From assembly GCF_030817215.1 (NCBI RefSeq), contig NZ_JAUSZA010000001.1, positions 2,330,501 through 2,394,500 of the forward strand: 64,000 nt of DNA, written 5' to 3'. The translations under genes were made by a program, and so were the position numbers. How positions within the stretch are numbered: the first letter of the stretch is position 1; every line of letters starts with the position of its first letter. The notes under the pieces are model-generated. The model was not told the origin of the DNA, made no database searches, and was given only the letters and a program-made list of their open reading frames with translations. This document shows positions 5,158 to 13,883 of this stretch, one piece after another. Source of the DNA: Paenibacillus sp. V4I3. GTDB taxonomy: Bacteria > Bacillota > Bacilli > Paenibacillales > NBRC-103111.

Positions 5158-6751
5158 GACTATACAAGCTGCAACATTGATGGTCCAGGGCACAGCTTCC
5201 GACGTGGGTAAAAGCATTCTAACGGCCGCACTGTGCCGCATTTTAGTTCAAGACGGCTGGCAAACGGCGCCATTCAAGTCGCAAAATATGTCCCTTAATT
5301 CATATGTTACATTTGATGGCAAAGAGATTGGCCGAGCACAAGGGGTACAGGCGGATGCCTGTCGTATTTTAGCCACAACGGATATGAATCCGATCCTGCT
5401 TAAGCCGAAGCAAGACATGGTTGCTCAGGTCGTTGTTCATGGGAAGCCATACTCTGATCTTGATGCAAGGACGTATAGAGAGACCTATTTGCCGCAGGCT
5501 GAAGTGATTGTGAAGGAAGCTTTAATCCGGCTGCGCAGTCAATATGATGTAGTGGTGCTAGAGGGGGCGGGAAGCCCTGCTGAGGTTAATCTGAAGGACC
5601 GCGATATTGTAAATATGCGGCTGGCGGGTTGGGCAGACGCTCCTGTGCTTCTTGTTGCTGATATTGATCGTGGAGGCGTATTTGCATCAATCGTAGGCAC
5701 TTTGGAGATCTTGACACCTGAGGAAAGAGACCGGGTTAAAGGCTTTATTATAAATAAGTTTCGTGGAGATGTTAGTCTGCTGAAACCGGGCTTGGATTGG
5801 CTAGAAGAGAAGACGGGGAAACCTGTTCTTGGGGTCATTCCTTATCTGCCGCAGTTAGGCATTGAGGATGAGGACTCAGCTTCACTAGATTCCAAGCGCA
5901 TGCAGAGTAAACGGATTGAAAGCTCTCAAGGGAAACTGGCAGAACAGCTGGATATCGCGGTCATTCGCTTGCCACGTCTCTCTAATTTTACGGATTTCGA
6001 TCCCCTGCAAGAGGAGAAAGATGTCCATTTCCGCTATATTACCCACCTATCCGAATGGGGTGAACCGGATGCCGTTTTGCTCCCAGGCAGCAAGAATACG
6101 ATGGACGATTTAAGGTATTTGAATGAATCTGGTTTGGCAGAACGAGTGAAGGTTTTCGCGCAAACAGAGAATGGTTGGGTCGCCGGTATCTGTGCTGGCT
6201 ATCAGATGTTGGGCGCCAAGCTGCTTGATCCAAACGGCTATGAATCAGATCATCCTGAGCTAGAAGGACTAGGGCTTTTACCAACGGAGACGGTATTTAC
6301 TTCCGATAAACGGACCGTTCAAGTTCAGGGAAGCAGTACACTCTTTGCTGAAAATAGCTCTGAGATTGTCATTGATGGTTATGAAATCCACATGGGGCGG
6401 ACGCGTTATTTGCAAGAAATGGTAACGCCTTTCCAGATTAAGGCTTTTACCAGCCTCGATGATGAAAGCTCTGACAATGTTCTGCACGGAGATGGGGCAG
6501 CTGCGGATCATGGGCGCGTTTGGGGGACGTATTTACACGGGATATTGCATAATGATGACTTCCGCAGAGCCTGGTTAAATCGTATTCGCAAGCATAAAGG
6601 ATTATCCCTAATTGATGGTGGCCTTCGTTTTAAAGAACGTCGAGAGGCTGCCTTCGATAGATTGGCTGACCACGTTAGATGTCACTTGGATATGAATCGT
6701 GTTTATGAGATGATGGATATATCAAAGCCTTGGAAAAGGGAGGATGTTTGA
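5147..6751 (+). CDS. cobQ: Cobyric acid synthase (glutamine-hydrolysing)
   Basis: 534 codons. CobQ (CbiP) amidates four side chains of adenosylcobyrinic acid diamide using glutamine and ATP. The N-terminal part is a dethiobiotin-synthetase-like ATPase with QGTASDVGKSIL. The block VLEGAGSPAEVNL follows. The C-terminal half is a class I glutamine amidotransferase with nucleophile Cys349 in GICAGYQMLG and the catalytic His in GTYLHGIL. The length is slightly above the usual ~500 because of a polar stretch at residues ~245-265. It starts inside cobD and its last bases contain the ribosome site for the next gene. Confidence 0.96.
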   Translation: MTNKTIQAATLMVQGTASDVGKSILTAALCRILVQDGWQTAPFKSQNMSLNSYVTFDGKEIGRAQGVQADACRILATTDMNPILLKPKQDMVAQVVVHGKPYSDLDARTYRETYLPQAEVIVKEALIRLRSQYDVVVLEGAGSPAEVNLKDRDIVNMRLAGWADAPVLLVADIDRGGVFASIVGTLEILTPEERDRVKGFIINKFRGDVSLLKPGLDWLEEKTGKPVLGVIPYLPQLGIEDEDSASLDSKRMQSKRIESSQGKLAEQLDIAVIRLPRLSNFTDFDPLQEEKDVHFRYITHLSEWGEPDAVLLPGSKNTMDDLRYLNESGLAERVKVFAQTENGWVAGICAGYQMLGAKLLDPNGYESDHPELEGLGLLPTETVFTSDKRTVQVQGSSTLFAENSSEIVIDGYEIHMGRTRYLQEMVTPFQIKAFTSLDDESSDNVLHGDGAAADHGRVWGTYLHGILHNDDFRRAWLNRIRKHKGLSLIDGGLRFKERREAAFDRLADHVRCHLDMNRVYEMMDISKPWKREDV

Positions 6752-6753
6752 AA

Positions 6754-7323
6754 ATGAAAATTTATACTCGAACTGGAGATGCGGGGCAAACAGGCGTAAT
6801 CGGTGGTCGTGTGGATAAAGACGATGATCGTGTTGAGGCTTATGGCACAACGGATGAACTGAATTGTTATGTGGGTCAGGCGATGAGCTTTATGGATCCT
6901 GAGAAGTATCCTGATTTACTCCCGGATCTGCTGCAGGTGCAGCATGAATTGTTTGATTGCGGTTCAGATCTTGCTCTCTTGAAGCAAGAGCTGCGTCCTT
7001 ATAAAGTAACAGCGGAAATGGTCGATATGCTTGAGACTTGGATTGATAAATACGATGCTGAAACTCCGGATATTACACGATTCATTTTGCCGGGCGGCGG
7101 CACCGTTTCATCCACACTTCATGTTTGCCGTACCGTATGCCGTAGAGCAGAACGCCGGGTGGTAACGCTAGCGCGAACACAGGCAATTAATCCAGAAGTG
7201 CGCAGATACTTGAACCGACTGTCCGATTTATTCTTCACCATTGCCCGCACTGCGAATCACCGTGAAGGTATTACGGATGTGGAATATGTGCGAAGCGCTG
7301 AGGTGTTTAGACGTAAATCATGA
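6754..7323 (+). CDS. pduO: Cob(I)alamin adenosyltransferase, PduO type
   Basis: 189 codons from ATG 6754; TTG codons at 6730 and 6748 are in frame, but GGGAGG at 6738-6743 and the family N terminus MKIYTRTGDAGQTG favour the ATG. The enzyme adds the 5'-deoxyadenosyl group from ATP to cob(I)alamin. The family blocks TRTGDAG near the start, FILPGGG and CRTVCRRAERR are all present. The start lies at the cobQ stop and the stop overlaps the next gene, so it is translated as part of the operon. Confidence 0.94.
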   Translation: MKIYTRTGDAGQTGVIGGRVDKDDDRVEAYGTTDELNCYVGQAMSFMDPEKYPDLLPDLLQVQHELFDCGSDLALLKQELRPYKVTAEMVDMLETWIDKYDAETPDITRFILPGGGTVSSTLHVCRTVCRRAERRVVTLARTQAINPEVRRYLNRLSDLFFTIARTANHREGITDVEYVRSAEVFRRKS

Positions 7324-8261
7324 GTTATTATGAACCGTTAGTATACATCGTACCGCCTGAGGAAGAGGGCTTTATACTCAAGACGGTGCTGCAAAAAAGA
7401 TTGATGGTCTCTCGCAAATTGCTATCCCGCATTAAACTGACCGAGCAGGGAATAACGGTGAATGGGGTAAGGCAATACATCAACATTAAGGTGAAAGCTG
7501 GCGATCGTGTAGAGATTCGCATGGAAGAAGAGCAATCCGAGGATATCTTGCCGCAGGATCTTCCTCTGCACATTCTGCATGAAGATGAGCATCTGTTAAT
7601 ACTAGCCAAGGATGCAGGTATCATCGTACATCCGACGCATGGGCATTATTTGAACACGATCGCCAATAGCGTTGTGTATCACTGGCAGCAAGCGGGCATT
7701 ACGTGCCGTTTCCGCCCCGTTCATAGGCTTGACCAAGATACATCAGGTGTATTGGCAATCGCAAAGACGCCCTATGTGCACCAGCAAATATCAGAGCAGA
7801 TGATTCAGCATCAGGTGAAAAAAGAATACCTGGCCTTTGTATGGGGCGTCATCACAGCGAAAAGCGGAACGATCAATGAACCCATTGATCGCGATCCTGA
7901 ACAGCCGCATGTTCGTATCGTTACCCCTGACGGATATTCGGCAGTAACTCATTATGAGGTTGTGGAACAATTCGCGCATGCCGCTTTAGTTCGAATATGG
8001 CTTGAAACCGGCCGGACACATCAAATTCGTGTGCATATGCGCCATTTGGGACATCCACTGCTTGGAGATAAGATGTACACACTTCCTGAGTTTGAGCAGA
8101 GTTTATCAGCATTAGAGGCCAGTGAACGGCTCAATCGCCAGGCTTTGCACGCGTATAAACTGGGCTTTGTGCATCCAGGAACAAGGGAATGGACGGAGTT
8201 TCATGCTCCTCTGCCAGCGGATTTAACTGTTTTACAATCATGGCTGCAGGAAAGTAACTAG
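7320..8261 (+). CDS. RluA-family rRNA/tRNA pseudouridine synthase
   Basis: 313 codons, start overlapping the pduO stop (ATGA). An S4-like RNA-binding segment at residues ~15-65 (SRIKLTEQGITVNG) precedes the RluA catalytic domain, with RPVHRLDQDTSG carrying the catalytic aspartate at 138. TGRTHQIRVHMRHLGHPLLG near the C terminus is the second family block. It isomerises uridine to pseudouridine in RNA; the target site cannot be told from sequence. It is the last gene of the cobalamin run, probably a passenger, and is followed by a clear terminator. Confidence 0.93.
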   Translation: MSYYEPLVYIVPPEEEGFILKTVLQKRLMVSRKLLSRIKLTEQGITVNGVRQYINIKVKAGDRVEIRMEEEQSEDILPQDLPLHILHEDEHLLILAKDAGIIVHPTHGHYLNTIANSVVYHWQQAGITCRFRPVHRLDQDTSGVLAIAKTPYVHQQISEQMIQHQVKKEYLAFVWGVITAKSGTINEPIDRDPEQPHVRIVTPDGYSAVTHYEVVEQFAHAALVRIWLETGRTHQIRVHMRHLGHPLLGDKMYTLPEFEQSLSALEASERLNRQALHAYKLGFVHPGTREWTEFHAPLPADLTVLQSWLQESN

Positions 8262-8269
8262 ATATTCAG

Positions 8270-8300
8270 AACCATCCCTTTTGTAGGATGGTTTTTCTTT
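8270..8300 (+). terminator. Intrinsic terminator after the cobalamin/rluA operon
   Basis: An 8-bp stem, AACCATCC at 8270-8277 with GGATGGTT at 8286-8293, followed by a T-rich run. Confidence 0.85.
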
Positions 8301-8388
8301 GTTATAACTTGACTTTCCTTATCAATTAGATCAGAATTTTAAGTAGTTCGTTTCATATCAACTTAGACTTAAAGGAGCTTTAAACATC

Positions 8389-8754
8389 ATGGGAGTAAAA
8401 GTATTTTGTTACGATAAATGCGGGACATGCCGTAGTGCCGTAAAGTGGTTGAAAGATCATCATGTAGATATTACAGAAAATGTCGCTGTATTCGATACGC
8501 CGCCCTCTGCCAAGGAATTGGCTAAGCTGCTTAGTGATAGCGGTCTGGAAATCAAAAAGTTTTTTAATACGTCCGGAGAAGTATATAAAGAGATGAGCCT
8601 GAAAGACAAACTACCCAGCATGTCGCAAGAGCAAATGCTCGAATTGCTCGCCTCGAACGGCAGGTTGATTAAGCGTCCGATCGTAACCGATGGCCATAAA
8701 GTAACAGTGGGCTTCAAGGAAGCTGAGTATGACGAAGTATGGGCGAAGGGGTGA
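8389..8754 (+). CDS. ArsC/Spx-family thioredoxin-fold protein
   Basis: 121 codons after an AAAGGAG site. The N terminus KVFCYDKCGTCRSAVKWL places a CxxC-type pair (CGTC) at the end of the first strand, and LIKRPIVTDG near residue 93 is the typical ArsC-family block. These proteins are either small arsenate-reductase-like enzymes or Spx/MgsR-type RNA-polymerase-binding stress regulators. No arsenic genes are nearby. I cannot separate the two roles by eye. It overlaps the frame of the next gene's leader region. Confidence 0.85.
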   Translation: MGVKVFCYDKCGTCRSAVKWLKDHHVDITENVAVFDTPPSAKELAKLLSDSGLEIKKFFNTSGEVYKEMSLKDKLPSMSQEQMLELLASNGRLIKRPIVTDGHKVTVGFKEAEYDEVWAKG

Positions 8755-8761
8755 TCTTAGG

Positions 8762-9859
8762 TTGGAAGAGAAGAAGAAACCAGCAGGTAAAAAGTCACCA
8801 CTAGCCATTGGCGGTTTCATAGCTGTTCTATTATCCCAAGGGAAACTGCTCTTAGGCTTACTAAAGCTTGGTAAAGCTGGCGGAGCCATCATCTCGATGT
8901 TCATTACTATTTGGGCTTATGCCTATCTCGCTCCATTACCCTTTGCGATTGGCATTGTTCTGATGATTCTTATCCATGAACTCGGTCATGTTTTCGCTGC
9001 CAAGATAAAGGGGCTTCCAGTGTCAGCGCCAGTATTTATCCCTTTTCTTGGAGCACTGATTACAATGAAAAAGAATCCTACCGATGCAGCAACAGAAGCG
9101 TTTATTGGCATAGGGGGGCCTATTCTTGGGACCATTGGTGGTGTTGCCGCTTTTGGTTTGGGCGTATATACCGATTCTCCTGTCATTGTTTCGGTTGCCT
9201 ATGCCGCATTTTATTTAAATTTAATTAATTTACTCCCTATTCATCCTCTAGATGGCGGGCGAATTTCTACAGCAGTCACTCGTTGGTTATGGATACTAGG
9301 TTTAATCGGCGGTTTGGTATTTATTTTCTATATAAATAGCCGTGTAAGTCAACTTATTTTCTTCGCCATATGGGCCATGTTTGGTTGGGATTTGTATAAA
9401 AAATACGTGAAATACAGAAATCGAGAAGAGCTTCTTTCGGTTTCCACTCGGTTTGATTTTGCGGCTGATCATTTGCTCCAGCAGGGATATATCATTCCGG
9501 GGGAAAATCACACACGAGATCTAGAATATTTAACTTACTCGGATTTGCAGGGCCCTGCGGAAAGTAGACAAACCATTGTGATGTACTGGCAGGGGATCGG
9601 ATTCGAGGGTCATGCTTTATTGCCTCAGCAATCCATTATTAAAAGAGTTCAATTAATCAAAGTGGAACGTATGCAGAAAGAGAATTGTTTTTATTTAGGG
9701 TTGCAAATAAAAGTGGATTATTCACCTCTAGGGATACAGGAGGTTTACTATGATGTCCCTGCGAAAACACGTTGGAAATTTGGAATCGCTTATCTTGCGC
9801 TCGTTTTGTTTTTGCTATATATGATAAGACTTGTTCATCAAGTGGGAATTATCGATTAA
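8762..9859 (+). CDS. Site-2-protease-type M50 membrane metallopeptidase
   Basis: 365 codons from TTG 8762, preceded by AAGGGGTGAT; an in-frame ATG at 8729 lies inside the previous gene without a ribosome site. The N terminus is lysine-rich and cytoplasmic. Membrane segments follow, with HELGH (zinc ligands) in one and NLLPIHPLDGGR, the second M50 block carrying the acidic ligand, in a later one. After the membrane core comes a ~130-residue soluble C-terminal domain and a last hydrophobic helix. S2P enzymes cleave within membranes to release anti-sigma or other regulators. The substrate is unknown. Confidence 0.88.
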   Translation: MEEKKKPAGKKSPLAIGGFIAVLLSQGKLLLGLLKLGKAGGAIISMFITIWAYAYLAPLPFAIGIVLMILIHELGHVFAAKIKGLPVSAPVFIPFLGALITMKKNPTDAATEAFIGIGGPILGTIGGVAAFGLGVYTDSPVIVSVAYAAFYLNLINLLPIHPLDGGRISTAVTRWLWILGLIGGLVFIFYINSRVSQLIFFAIWAMFGWDLYKKYVKYRNREELLSVSTRFDFAADHLLQQGYIIPGENHTRDLEYLTYSDLQGPAESRQTIVMYWQGIGFEGHALLPQQSIIKRVQLIKVERMQKENCFYLGLQIKVDYSPLGIQEVYYDVPAKTRWKFGIAYLALVLFLLYMIRLVHQVGIID

Positions 9860-11102: not shown

Positions 11103-11193
11103 AAATTAGAGATATTGGTAAAAATAGGAGAATGAGAGACATATAGATGTTTACGTAATGAAATAAAACTTATTTGTTGAAAGGGGTAAGCAT

Positions 11194-12348
11194 ATGGATG
11201 CCATTTCCTCATTATCTGAGCTTTTAGCTGAGCAGAAGCCTTCATCGTTCGTAGAAATTCCCGGAATTTTGGGGCAAACATTTGGGCAAGCGACAATTGC
11301 AGCTACACTGCCCATGAGCAAACTATTTTCAATCTATGAAGTTGATTTAGAAGTTCAACGTGCGATTATTCCGCGTAATCTTTCTAAGCTAATTGATTAC
11401 GTTAATTTGTATTTAGAAGATCGCCAACCTATTTATTTCCCGGGAATCATTTTCTCGGCAAGAGGAGCAGGTCATTATGACGAAGATCAACAAGCGCTTC
11501 GTTTGCAGCCTATTGAGAAATTGTACGTTGTGGATGGTCAGCATCGTTTGGCTGCTTTCCAACGCATTATGGAGACGTTACAAAGTCAAATGGCTCGTGC
11601 CAAGGATCGCCGTGAGTACGACAAGATGGAAGAGATCACGGAGAAGCTGCGCCGTTTGTACGCTTTCCCTATCTCAACCATGACCTATCTGGACATTAAT
11701 GCTCGTCAAGAGCGTCAGTTGTTCTCCGACATTAATAAGCTTCCGCGCAAGCTTGGCGGCAACCTGGCGGTACTTCGCGATCAGCGCAGATTCTATCACG
11801 TTGCTGCGACGGAGCTTGCAGCCAAAGCGCCAGCTATGCAGAAACTGACCGTAGATATGTTCTCTGAACGCGGTAAGTCACCTGAGTATTTGTTCTCCTA
11901 TCACTTGCTGATTGAAATATTGATTGCTTTGTTTGAAGGCAGAATGAAATCAGCAGCGCGTAATAATGGCTATCAATATGAGGATAAAGAACTGCAGGAT
12001 CTTGTATCCTTGGCGGGAACCTATTTCAATGGCTTGCTGAATTACTTGCCCGAACCAGCTAAGGGTGAAATCGTTTGGTCTGAGAATATCCAAATAGCAC
12101 TAGCCATGTTTATGCACGAAGAAGCTACGAAACCAGGTAAATTTAATCGCTATGCACTTGAGCACGTATTGAAAATACTTCCGCATGTGAATTGGAACAA
12201 CATTTATGCGGGAGAAGAGAAGGATCGGTTGCCGAGACGGACTCGCATTATGAAAGCCTACAACCATATCAAAAACTTTTATCAAGATCAGAATGCATTT
12301 CTAATCAGCGATGCTGATTCTTACAATTCCAAGGAGGACGTGAGCTAA
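11194..12348 (+). CDS. DGQHR-domain (DndB-like) protein, first of a tandem pair
   Basis: 384 codons after AAAGGGG. The diagnostic motif VVDGQHRLAAF is at residues 112-122, and LFSDIN at residues 176-181 is the second conserved block of the DndB/DGQHR family. Between them lies a charged, probably coiled-coil insert (residues ~125-160). In characterised systems, DGQHR proteins occur as DndB, a regulator of DNA phosphorothioation, and in Dpd 7-deazaguanine DNA modification. Neither set of modification enzymes is present here. The next gene is a divergent paralogue starting at the last base of this stop codon. The specific function is unknown. Confidence 0.85.
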   Translation: MDAISSLSELLAEQKPSSFVEIPGILGQTFGQATIAATLPMSKLFSIYEVDLEVQRAIIPRNLSKLIDYVNLYLEDRQPIYFPGIIFSARGAGHYDEDQQALRLQPIEKLYVVDGQHRLAAFQRIMETLQSQMARAKDRREYDKMEEITEKLRRLYAFPISTMTYLDINARQERQLFSDINKLPRKLGGNLAVLRDQRRFYHVAATELAAKAPAMQKLTVDMFSERGKSPEYLFSYHLLIEILIALFEGRMKSAARNNGYQYEDKELQDLVSLAGTYFNGLLNYLPEPAKGEIVWSENIQIALAMFMHEEATKPGKFNRYALEHVLKILPHVNWNNIYAGEEKDRLPRRTRIMKAYNHIKNFYQDQNAFLISDADSYNSKEDVS

Positions 12349-13532
12349 TGGAAGGATTACGCCTTAAGATGACCATTCATCCTTTTTGCGATAAGTTTGG
12401 ACTTTCAACTGTTGCTTTACGCGTCCAGGATCTGCTGAATTATACGATGATTGACCCTATGGTGCAGCGTAAGCTGAGCAACATGCAAAGACGCAAAATC
12501 TCCACCTATTTACAGGAGCGGGAGCTCGATCATGTGTTCTTCGGACCTGTTACGCTGTCATTGCGTGAAGTGAATCAACTGTCCAAGGGCGAGAAGGAAT
12601 TCCTTCTGAGGCATGGTTCCAAGCTGTCTATTTTGGACGGTCAGCATCGTATCCTAGCACTAGGCTATGTGAATGATCAGATGCAAAAGGAAGTTAGACG
12701 GTATGAGAAAAAATTAGTGGTGCTAAAGATTAAACAACGGAAGTTTCCAGAGGATGCTGAAATTAAGCAAGAGGTTGAGGAAACAGAAGGTACAATTAAT
12801 CAGCTTGAGGGAAGACGTCTAGATTTGATGGAAACACAGCTTGCTGTGCAAATCTATATTGGCTTAACAGAGGAAGAAGAGCAGCAGTTGTTCGGCGATA
12901 TTAACTCTAAAGTCCAGCTGGTGAGTAAGGAGCTTGGTCATTCCTTCGACTCCATTGACCCGTTAAATCTGGTTATTCAACAGGTTGTCGATCATAATGT
13001 CTATCTCAAAGCAGCCGGTGTTGAGCGTCGCAACAACTTGACTTCGTTCAATCGTAACTTTACTTGTTTCAGCTGGTTATATGCGACGGCGACGATGCTT
13101 TTTTCAGGCAGAATGCAGCCATCCTATGAGCTTCAGCGTAAAATTCGCCACGATCCATCGACGTATGTAGAAATATTGCACCAATTTTTTAATACGGTCC
13201 TGCCGATGATGCCAGAGCAACCAGGCTTGGCGCAGTATACATCTGCAAATCGTGTGATTCAAGAAAGTATTGCGCTGTATGCCAATCGTTTCTTATTCCC
13301 GAACGGAGAGTATAACGAGGAATGGACGAATTCTTTGCAGCTTCTGGAAGGCTTCGATTGGTCGCATGACAATGAGGAATTGATCTACGTATTTGGCGCG
13401 TTGGATAACGGTAAGATCAATCTTATCCACGAGAAATCGCTGAAAAAGCATGTGAAGCTTGTTCAATTCTTCCTTGAAGGCACGGAAAGCGGAAGTGCGG
13501 ATGAAGAAGATGTGGCTTCGTCTGCATCATAA
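12348..13532 (+). CDS. DGQHR-domain (DndB-like) protein, second of a tandem pair
   Basis: 394 codons; the ATG shares one base with the upstream TAA (TAATG) and AAGGAGG lies in the end of the first gene, so the two are translationally coupled. ILDGQHRILAL covers residues 95-105, with a longer charged coiled-coil insert after it (about residues 110-165) and LFGDINSK at residues 181-188. The motifs are arranged as in the first gene but general identity looks low, so this is an old duplication or a two-component assembly. A strong bidirectional terminator follows. Confidence 0.85.
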   Translation: MEGLRLKMTIHPFCDKFGLSTVALRVQDLLNYTMIDPMVQRKLSNMQRRKISTYLQERELDHVFFGPVTLSLREVNQLSKGEKEFLLRHGSKLSILDGQHRILALGYVNDQMQKEVRRYEKKLVVLKIKQRKFPEDAEIKQEVEETEGTINQLEGRRLDLMETQLAVQIYIGLTEEEEQQLFGDINSKVQLVSKELGHSFDSIDPLNLVIQQVVDHNVYLKAAGVERRNNLTSFNRNFTCFSWLYATATMLFSGRMQPSYELQRKIRHDPSTYVEILHQFFNTVLPMMPEQPGLAQYTSANRVIQESIALYANRFLFPNGEYNEEWTNSLQLLEGFDWSHDNEELIYVFGALDNGKINLIHEKSLKKHVKLVQFFLEGTESGSADEEDVASSAS

Positions 13533-13590
13533 AACACGGGCAAAAAGACAAATGGGATATTGATCTCATTTGTCTTTTTGCTGTGTTTTA
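13531..13590 (+). terminator. Strong intrinsic terminator after the DGQHR pair
   Basis: A perfect 15-bp stem, 13540-13554 with 13567-13581, flanked by AAAACAC and GTGTTTT arms that extend the pairing. Confidence 0.9.
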
Positions 13591-13655: not shown

Positions 13656-13883
13656 ATGTTGGCCGTTCATCAACGTATGGCGGAGTTATGGACATTACGC
13701 AGAGCGCGAGAGTTAACACGAGCAGAGCAAGATGAATTACTGCTTTGTATGGAAGCGAACGCGACATATGTATGGAACCGTTTGAAGCTGGAAAATTTAT
13801 CGCTCTGTGCCTCGCTCACCGGAGACTATGATTGGCTGCATGACATTTGCGAGCGCATCGAAAAGCTTGAACCCAAGCACTGA
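13656..13883 (+). CDS. Small conserved protein of unknown function
   Basis: 75 codons after AGGAGGG. The protein is mostly helical in appearance, with LTRAEQDELLLCMEANA, then ENLSLCASLTGDYDWLHDICERI near the end. Short Bacillales proteins of this layout exist, but I know no function. It lies alone between two terminators, so it is a single-gene transcript, downstream of but not in the DGQHR operon. The stop codon lies within the terminator stem. Confidence 0.75.
   Translation: MLAVHQRMAELWTLRRARELTRAEQDELLLCMEANATYVWNRLKLENLSLCASLTGDYDWLHDICERIEKLEPKH

Follow-up and report, generated by a model that had tools for sequence, protein, structure and literature searches.

A two-subunit DndB-family variant that is core to one Paenibacillus lineage

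Proteins of the DndB family are known for assisting defence by DNA modification. DndB itself has been described as binding palindromes in the dnd promoter and regulating that promoter (PMC4507180), a DndB-like protein as binding ATP and GTP (PMC12704722), and DpdB, from the 7-deazaguanine (Dpd) system, as an ATPase involved in inserting a modified base into DNA (PMC12839542). Nuclease or nucleotide-degrading roles have been proposed for DndB (PMC10853773), and nicking and nucleotide-depletion roles of ParB/sulfiredoxin (Srx) proteins are discussed (PMC10853773, PMC12839542). Here we describe two adjacent DndB-family genes, which we name dgqA and dgqB, in a 64,000-nucleotide stretch of the genome of Paenibacillus sp. 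V4I3 (contig NZ_JAUSZA010000001.1, positions 2,330,501 to 2,394,500 of the forward strand; hereafter “the window”). The pair is real and conserved: a variant of the DndB family made of two subunits and belonging to the core genes of its Genome Taxonomy Database (GTDB) family. We infer a function for it below.

The dgqAB genes and their products

Both genes lie on the plus strand, dgqA at 11194-12348 (384 amino acids) and dgqB at 12348-13532 (394 amino acids). At the junction (12346-12350) the dgqA stop codon TAA occupies 12346-12348 and the dgqB start codon ATG occupies 12348-12350, the last A of TAA being common to both. Each protein carries a QR pair (Q55-R56 in DgqA, Q40-R41 in DgqB), followed by the DGQHR box (residues 114-118 of DgqA, encoded at 11533-11547; residues 97-101 of DgqB, encoded at 12636-12650) and then by LFSDIN at residues 176-181 of DgqA, about 60 residues past DGQHR, or LFGDIN at residues 181-186 of DgqB, about 80 residues past it. 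Between the boxes, AlphaFold2 places helices at 116-139 and 142-157 in DgqA and at 99-132 and 137-162 in DgqB, whose insert is the longer. The QR, DGQHR and FxxxN elements are invariant in our DgqA and DgqB alignments (18 rows for A and 17 for B in one set, 35 rows each in the other), and the same three are given as motifs common to DGQHR and DUF262 domains in a study of GmrSD (PMC4619093). An initial annotation, made from the letters of the window, had described coupled tandem reading frames with two such boxes and an insert between them, and both the sequence and the models bear this out.

Directly 3′ of dgqB lies a terminator-like hairpin of 20 pairs with a T-rich tail (13539-13582, plus strand). 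Between the upstream aminotransferase gene and dgqA lie 91 bases (11103-11193, plus strand) with a GGTAAAAATAGGAGAATGAGAGA block that recurs upstream of dgqA in several near relatives, and a sigma-70-type scan found no plus-strand site there. We read dgqAB as a self-contained two-gene operon.

Both proteins score over the cut-off of the Pfam DndB family PF14072 (61.2 bits for DgqA and 75.8 for DgqB, against 29.1), and their likeness to DGQHR/DndB proteins is therefore not due to chance. Matches to the DGQHR domain model TIGR03187 fall narrowly below its cut-off (56.9 and 55.2 bits against 58.85), those to the DndB equivalog TIGR03233 fall far short of theirs (23.2 and 28.0 bits against 328), and those to GmrSD_N are weak and below cut-off (26.1 and 18.5 bits against 33.2). 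The Pfam scan listed neither an HNH nor a ParB family for either protein and found no nuclease family over cut-off in them; helix-turn-helix families were represented by none in DgqA and by one, below cut-off, in DgqB. Among PADLOC models the two proteins matched DndB only (21.1 and 40.4 bits), and a sequence search of the PDB returned no match for DgqA and weak ones for DgqB (best E 0.046).

The proteins were modelled singly with AlphaFold2 from the 35-row alignments. For the DgqA model (predicted local distance difference test score, pLDDT, 78.5; predicted template modelling score, pTM, 0.70), VIA-align ranked SspE first (Z 8.4, 146 residues, root-mean-square deviation, rmsd, 3.8), followed by PadC, ParB and Noc (Z about 7), DndI and sulfiredoxin, in a range down to about 5.5. 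Foldseek gave BrxU as the best PDB match (E 0.008). The part of DgqA aligned to SspE, PadC, ParB, Noc and sulfiredoxin comprises residues from about 29 to 186. For DgqB, the lower VIA-align rows include SspE (Z 7.1, 153 residues, rmsd 4.9), Noc (Z 7.0, 98 residues, rmsd 2.7) and ParB (Z 5.9). Z values of 7 to 8 can arise by chance in general, and we credit them here because the sequence family agrees with the fold. These searches barely probed the helical C-terminal parts of the two proteins. The models support a ParB/sulfiredoxin-like fold for the N domain of DgqA and point to it more weakly for DgqB. The ParB likeness suggested at first sight thus stands for DgqA and is weaker for DgqB, where such matches rank below unrelated helical ones. 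We take the DGQHR box to stand where ParB has its ParB box.

Compared with DndB, the regulator of the dnd operon, DgqA and DgqB have the same Pfam family, the same QR, DGQHR and FxxxN boxes and a similar length. Unlike DndB, they miss the equivalog model, form two tandem subunits and have a core rather than a patchy distribution, and their genome has no match to DndE (PF08870; DndC and DndD were not searched for). DpdB is likewise called ParB-like (PMC12839542); however, DgqAB consists of two different tandem subunits, and one DpdA query found no match in the genome. The DUF262-HNH restriction effectors SspE, DndI and BrxU align to the same N-terminal part of the DgqA model, whereas the GmrSD_N score and the lack of a listed HNH family set DgqAB apart from this group, to which GmrSD also belongs. 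ParB, Noc and PadC, with the ParB-CTPase fold, resemble the DgqA N domain in structure but differ in that DgqA and DgqB have no listed ParB Pfam match and no helix-turn-helix family over cut-off.

Distribution and conservation of the pair

In the GTDB family of this genome, dgqA is present in 89 of 104 genomes and dgqB in the same 89; the remaining 15 have neither, and the ThrS control was found in all 104. None of 22 genera is mixed for presence of the pair. By their coordinates, A and B are adjacent in the carriers, with G023, G026 and G094 (genomes and loci are given by our own G and L numbers) holding broken, contig-split or partial copies. This co-occurrence shows that the copies are linked and rules out random, unlinked ones. 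For contrast, DndE occurs in 9 of the 104 genomes (3/30 and 4/25 in the two larger genera having it) and near-full-length DpdA in two, with short weak DpdA matches in four more. A family member with a reduced genome of 2.4 Mb keeps the pair (75% identity for A, 74% for B), and its fetched pair locus has no cob-gene hit. SpoIVA is likewise present in that genome, and retention of the pair there therefore does not separate it from a link to sporulation.

Pairwise distances among 18 genomes correlate at 0.75 for A and B, 0.54 for A and ThrS and 0.44 for B and ThrS (none of 2,000 permutations was as high), and 11 of 15 splits are shared between the A and B trees compared with 8 of 15 between either and ThrS. 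Because these distances correlate and splits are shared, we read the pair as inherited largely vertically within the family. On a 41-row ThrS tree, which holds 27 carriers and 14 of the 15 non-carriers, the presence pattern takes at least five changes to explain; four of the non-carrier rows, at just 62-64% identity to the query, may represent a paralogue. Loss after early presence and several gains are both possible origins of the non-carriers. A spread so nearly universal and largely vertical is more in keeping with a core function than with an accessory defence system. In an order-wide sample, 36 of 192 genomes from other families had a PF14072 match of some kind, and in G143, the one of those whose neighbourhood was viewed, the gene lies beside dnd-type genes.

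Among named loci (the best 80 of 82), both genes were found in all. The A/B junction is a one-base overlap in 77, a four-base overlap in one, abutting in one and broken in one; in a smaller family set the one-base overlap recurs in 17 of 20. The initial annotation had pointed to two divergent copies in one operon and to a heteromeric complex; that two divergent subunits are kept together is supported by this junction and by an A-B distance correlation exceeding that of either gene with ThrS. Median ratios of nonsynonymous to synonymous substitution rates (dN/dS) over the 23 closest named loci are 0.019 for A and 0.021 for B, compared with 0.033-0.066 for four neighbouring genes (14 to 23 loci); with median dS about 1 to 2, near saturation, these ratios are rough. 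In 9 of 20 loci the genes upstream are the same as in the window; in the rest they differ, without the pair being separated. A gene that looks by eye like a pseudouridine synthase is the most frequent neighbour, at 35 of the 80 loci, and neighbours vary between genera while A and B remain together.

Some loci depart from the usual single, intact pair. Paenibacillus eucommiae has two pairs in one species, and G017 has two diverged copies on one contig (L068 and L069), with A 65% and 78% identical to DgqA. Among the 80 named loci, that of Paenibacillus sp. CC-CFT747 (L217, in G023) holds a clearly broken pair, its genes split into several frames. Blocks upstream of dgqA are clade-specific: among 30 upstream stretches chosen from 79, TATAATGG occurs in nine and TGAACCTA in eight. 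In eight loci (L175, L176, L179, L183, L194, L219, L220, L222) a conserved TGTATAATGG is followed by a TATATgAACCTA-like block; this element overlaps a likely extended -10 box and is a candidate operator; it was not seen in the clade to which the window belongs.

The source genome is 8.17 Mb in one contig. The best named DgqB matches in the GTDB scan, 98% identical, are from Paenibacillus phytorum, P. alginolyticus and two Paenibacillus sp. strains. Upstream of dgqA are a CobQ-type gene and genes for a cobalamin adenosyltransferase, a pseudouridine synthase, an ArsC-family protein, an M50 peptidase and the aminotransferase; downstream of dgqB are genes for a mannosyltransferase-like protein and an FMN reductase. 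A 75-residue open reading frame (ORF) at 13656-13883 lies between the terminator-like hairpin and the mannosyltransferase-like gene. The window had been said to contain no dnd, dpd or restriction gene. For ten neighbours (between 5147 and 20604) this holds, since none matches a PADLOC family at E 1e-5, the window's other ORFs not having been scanned; for DndE and DpdA the genome-wide searches described above extend it. The same genome has a third, solo DndB-family gene 3.2 Mb away (G000:C1:5581721-5582605; L232:8686-9678). The divergent gene beside it looks, by eye, like a helix-turn-helix regulator, and extra PF14072 matches of this kind occur in some other genomes of the genus.

Tandem pairs elsewhere in Bacilli

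In a class-wide sample, the B profile matched 12 of 398 genomes, the window's own included, and adjacent tandem pairs in the same A-B order were found in seven of the others (G399, G404, G425, G501, G524, G572 and G624). In profile comparisons with the distant pairs, A scored 265 against gene 1 and 185 against gene 2, and B scored 224 against gene 2 and 186 against gene 1, compared with 126 for A against B. The profiles thus put A with first genes and B with second genes, which supports a common gene order and strengthens the view of two subunits kept together. For a second pair type (G399 and G624), A scored 201 against gene 1 and 31 against gene 2, and B scored 131 and 139, respectively, the last contrast being slight. 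Tree support for B alongside the second genes is only moderate (87/68), and A does not join the first genes. From the gene-order-matched profiles and this moderate grouping, the A/B duplication probably, though not certainly, predates these Bacilli lineages.

In two other Bacilli families, a ComK-family gene lies directly 3′ of the pair on the same strand in all ten intact cases. These comprise L226 (9019-12130), L227 (8495-11372) and eight further intact pairs (L336-L342 and L344) from a search of 190 and 41 genomes, of which 16 and 2 matched; the ComK genes after the eight all score over the Pfam ComK cut-off. Like dgqAB, the comK-linked pairs are two adjacent genes, with A matching gene 1 and B slightly better gene 2. 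By pattern, gene 1 has DGQHR in eight of the ten, DGMHR in one and neither in one. The other matched genomes are varied: G458, G1052 and G1045 have only short pair remnants beside a retained comK; G1134 and G1122 have broken or partial pairs, with no ComK match in the stretch; G1167, G1149 and a second site in G1150 have single DndB-like genes, again with no ComK match; and G501 matched through its other-type pair.

Unlike dgqAB, the comK-linked pair is followed by a hairpin leader and comK. This leader (L336:8285-8426 and matching gaps in L226, L227, L337-L342 and L344) has a first stem whose sequence varies while its pairing is kept, followed by a hairpin of the GGAGTATAC...GTATACTCC type; a T run after it is clear in 7 of 10. 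Our script folded both parts properly in 8 of 10. RNAalifold, applied to a MAFFT alignment of the ten leaders, recovered the terminator stem only, with one pair changed on both sides, MAFFT having left the first stem unaligned. No Rfam family was found on the leader (8 of 13 comK-region loci scanned), and with L336 alone matches were only far below gathering scores. The leader is possibly a comK attenuator. ComK boxes (AAAAN5TTTT) near the pairs amount to four single hits over the ten loci. Separately, a c-di-GMP-I riboswitch lies on the minus strand of L344 (8978-9063), upstream of a minus-strand gene adjoining the pair.

A phylum sample of 398 genomes gave matches to the distant gene-1 profile in seven others, all with a single DndB-like gene and none with a tandem pair in the fetched stretch. 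Some of these single genes adjoin genes looking like dndC or dndD. In L253 (G670, 6223-9635), a single DndB-like gene has a gene upstream that by eye looks like ParA and a 206-residue ORF downstream that has no Pfam match. DgqB has no match in phage records or IMG/VR and the distant gene 2 has none in phage records; a phage origin of the pair was rejected on these grounds.

Possible roles of DgqAB

The reading we tentatively prefer, at somewhat less than an even chance, is that DgqAB is a heteromeric, nucleoside triphosphate (NTP)-gated DNA-binding switch on a ParB/Srx fold, with a core, probably regulatory role. DgqA and DgqB would be an obligate pair forming an A-B heteromer, whose N domains would bind NTP in a pocket made by QR, DGQHR and LFxDIN. 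NTP binding would alter the grip of the complex on DNA, as has been reported for DndB and ParB. The core job in the Paenibacillus family would most likely be control at the level of transcription or of the chromosome, in response to nucleotide or DNA state, rather than accessory restriction, and the comK-linked homologous pairs suggest that one job of such a module may be to control a DNA-uptake-type programme. We favor a regulatory or DNA-state-sensing job over restriction because of the core status of the pair, its low dN/dS, the lack of partner enzymes and the comK-linked relatives.

Several observations weigh against this reading. The DgqB model is weak (pLDDT 69.7, pTM 0.47), its top VIA-align rows are unrelated helical proteins that match the insert, and no Foldseek match of either model reached E 0.001, those of DgqB being no better than E 0.9. 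No operator common to clades was seen among the 30 upstream stretches compared. Some of the 15 non-carriers nest among carriers on the ThrS tree. A 12-row ComK profile found no match in the window or in sets of 20 and 80 Paenibacillus-family loci, the rest of the genome not having been searched, and the comK link is therefore not directly transferable to dgqAB. Because gene 2 of the comK-linked pairs, unlike dgqB, is without DGQHR in all ten (DGSKR, DGTQR, DGSSR and others), those pairs may also work differently. Finally, some pairs lie near defence genes. On Priestia megaterium plasmid p6 (L258, 4038-13781), a tandem DndB-like pair sits between genes for an Mrr-type endonuclease, a DUF4365 protein and Gabija gajAB; in G425 some 5 kb separate the pair from GajA and a short GajB; and the pair in G501 is beside recombinases and near a gene read by eye as rlmH.

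Such defence-like neighbourhoods keep a defence role in play. DgqAB could be a two-gene counter-invader system, fixed as core in this lineage, whose heteromer senses invading or modified DNA and nicks DNA or consumes nucleotides. The patchy occurrence in Bacilli, where seven further genomes of the 398-genome class sample have tandem pairs, agrees with this proposal, as do the proximity of the DgqA fold to SspE, a restriction effector, and the nicking and nucleotide-depletion roles discussed for ParB/Srx proteins in the papers cited at the outset. However, within the family the pair is core, largely vertical and low in dN/dS, the Pfam scan found no nuclease family over cut-off in A or B, the ten neighbours are without a PADLOC match, and DgqB is without a match in the phage records and IMG/VR. 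We consider a counter-invader system somewhat unlikely.

Another possibility, in our view quite unlikely, is that DgqAB is a DNA-handling clamp or helper that loads on chromosomal or incoming DNA like ParB or Noc and aids segregation, nucleoid organisation or transformation. The linkage to comK, directly downstream of the relatives in 10 of 10 cases, would then reflect co-expression during competence, and the Noc, ParB and PadC fold matches and the retention of the pair in the reduced 2.4-Mb genome are consistent with such a role. Against it stand the helix-turn-helix results (none listed in A, below cut-off in B) and the report that P. polymyxa DSM 365 has no comK (PMC9195935).

A last reading, in which the pair is a stray accessory protein set serving a dnd or dpd system for DNA modification whose genes lie elsewhere, is highly improbable and close to refuted: PF14072 membership and a weak match (24% identity) to a DndB-annotated protein beside dpdA on a cyanobacterial Allocoleopsis plasmid, one of three plasmid records matched by DgqB, speak for it, but the genome has no DndE or DpdA match (DndC and DndD not searched for), on which ground dependence on these systems was rejected, the equivalog model is missed, and DndE and near-full-length DpdA are rare in a family where 89 genomes have the pair.

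Returning to the NTP-gated switch, we speculate that DgqAB may represent an undescribed class of two-subunit, NTP-gated ParB-fold switches for DNA uptake or DNA-state-responsive transcription in Bacilli. One Paenibacillus lineage would have fixed its pair as a core regulator, a second lineage would have coupled the pair to comK by way of a leader resembling a terminator, and further lineages would carry it near defence genes. We consider this wider proposal rather unlikely. Among open-licence papers on DGQHR, on DndB/DpdB or on comK with DndB we saw none that describes a pair of this kind, which is no proof of novelty. A near-universal, slowly evolving pair with no partner found and with comK-linked distant kin would show that a nucleotide-binding fold known from helpers of DNA-modification defence can have a cellular role of its own, and dgqAB offers a small, testable operon for learning what the DGQHR pocket senses and what it does to DNA.

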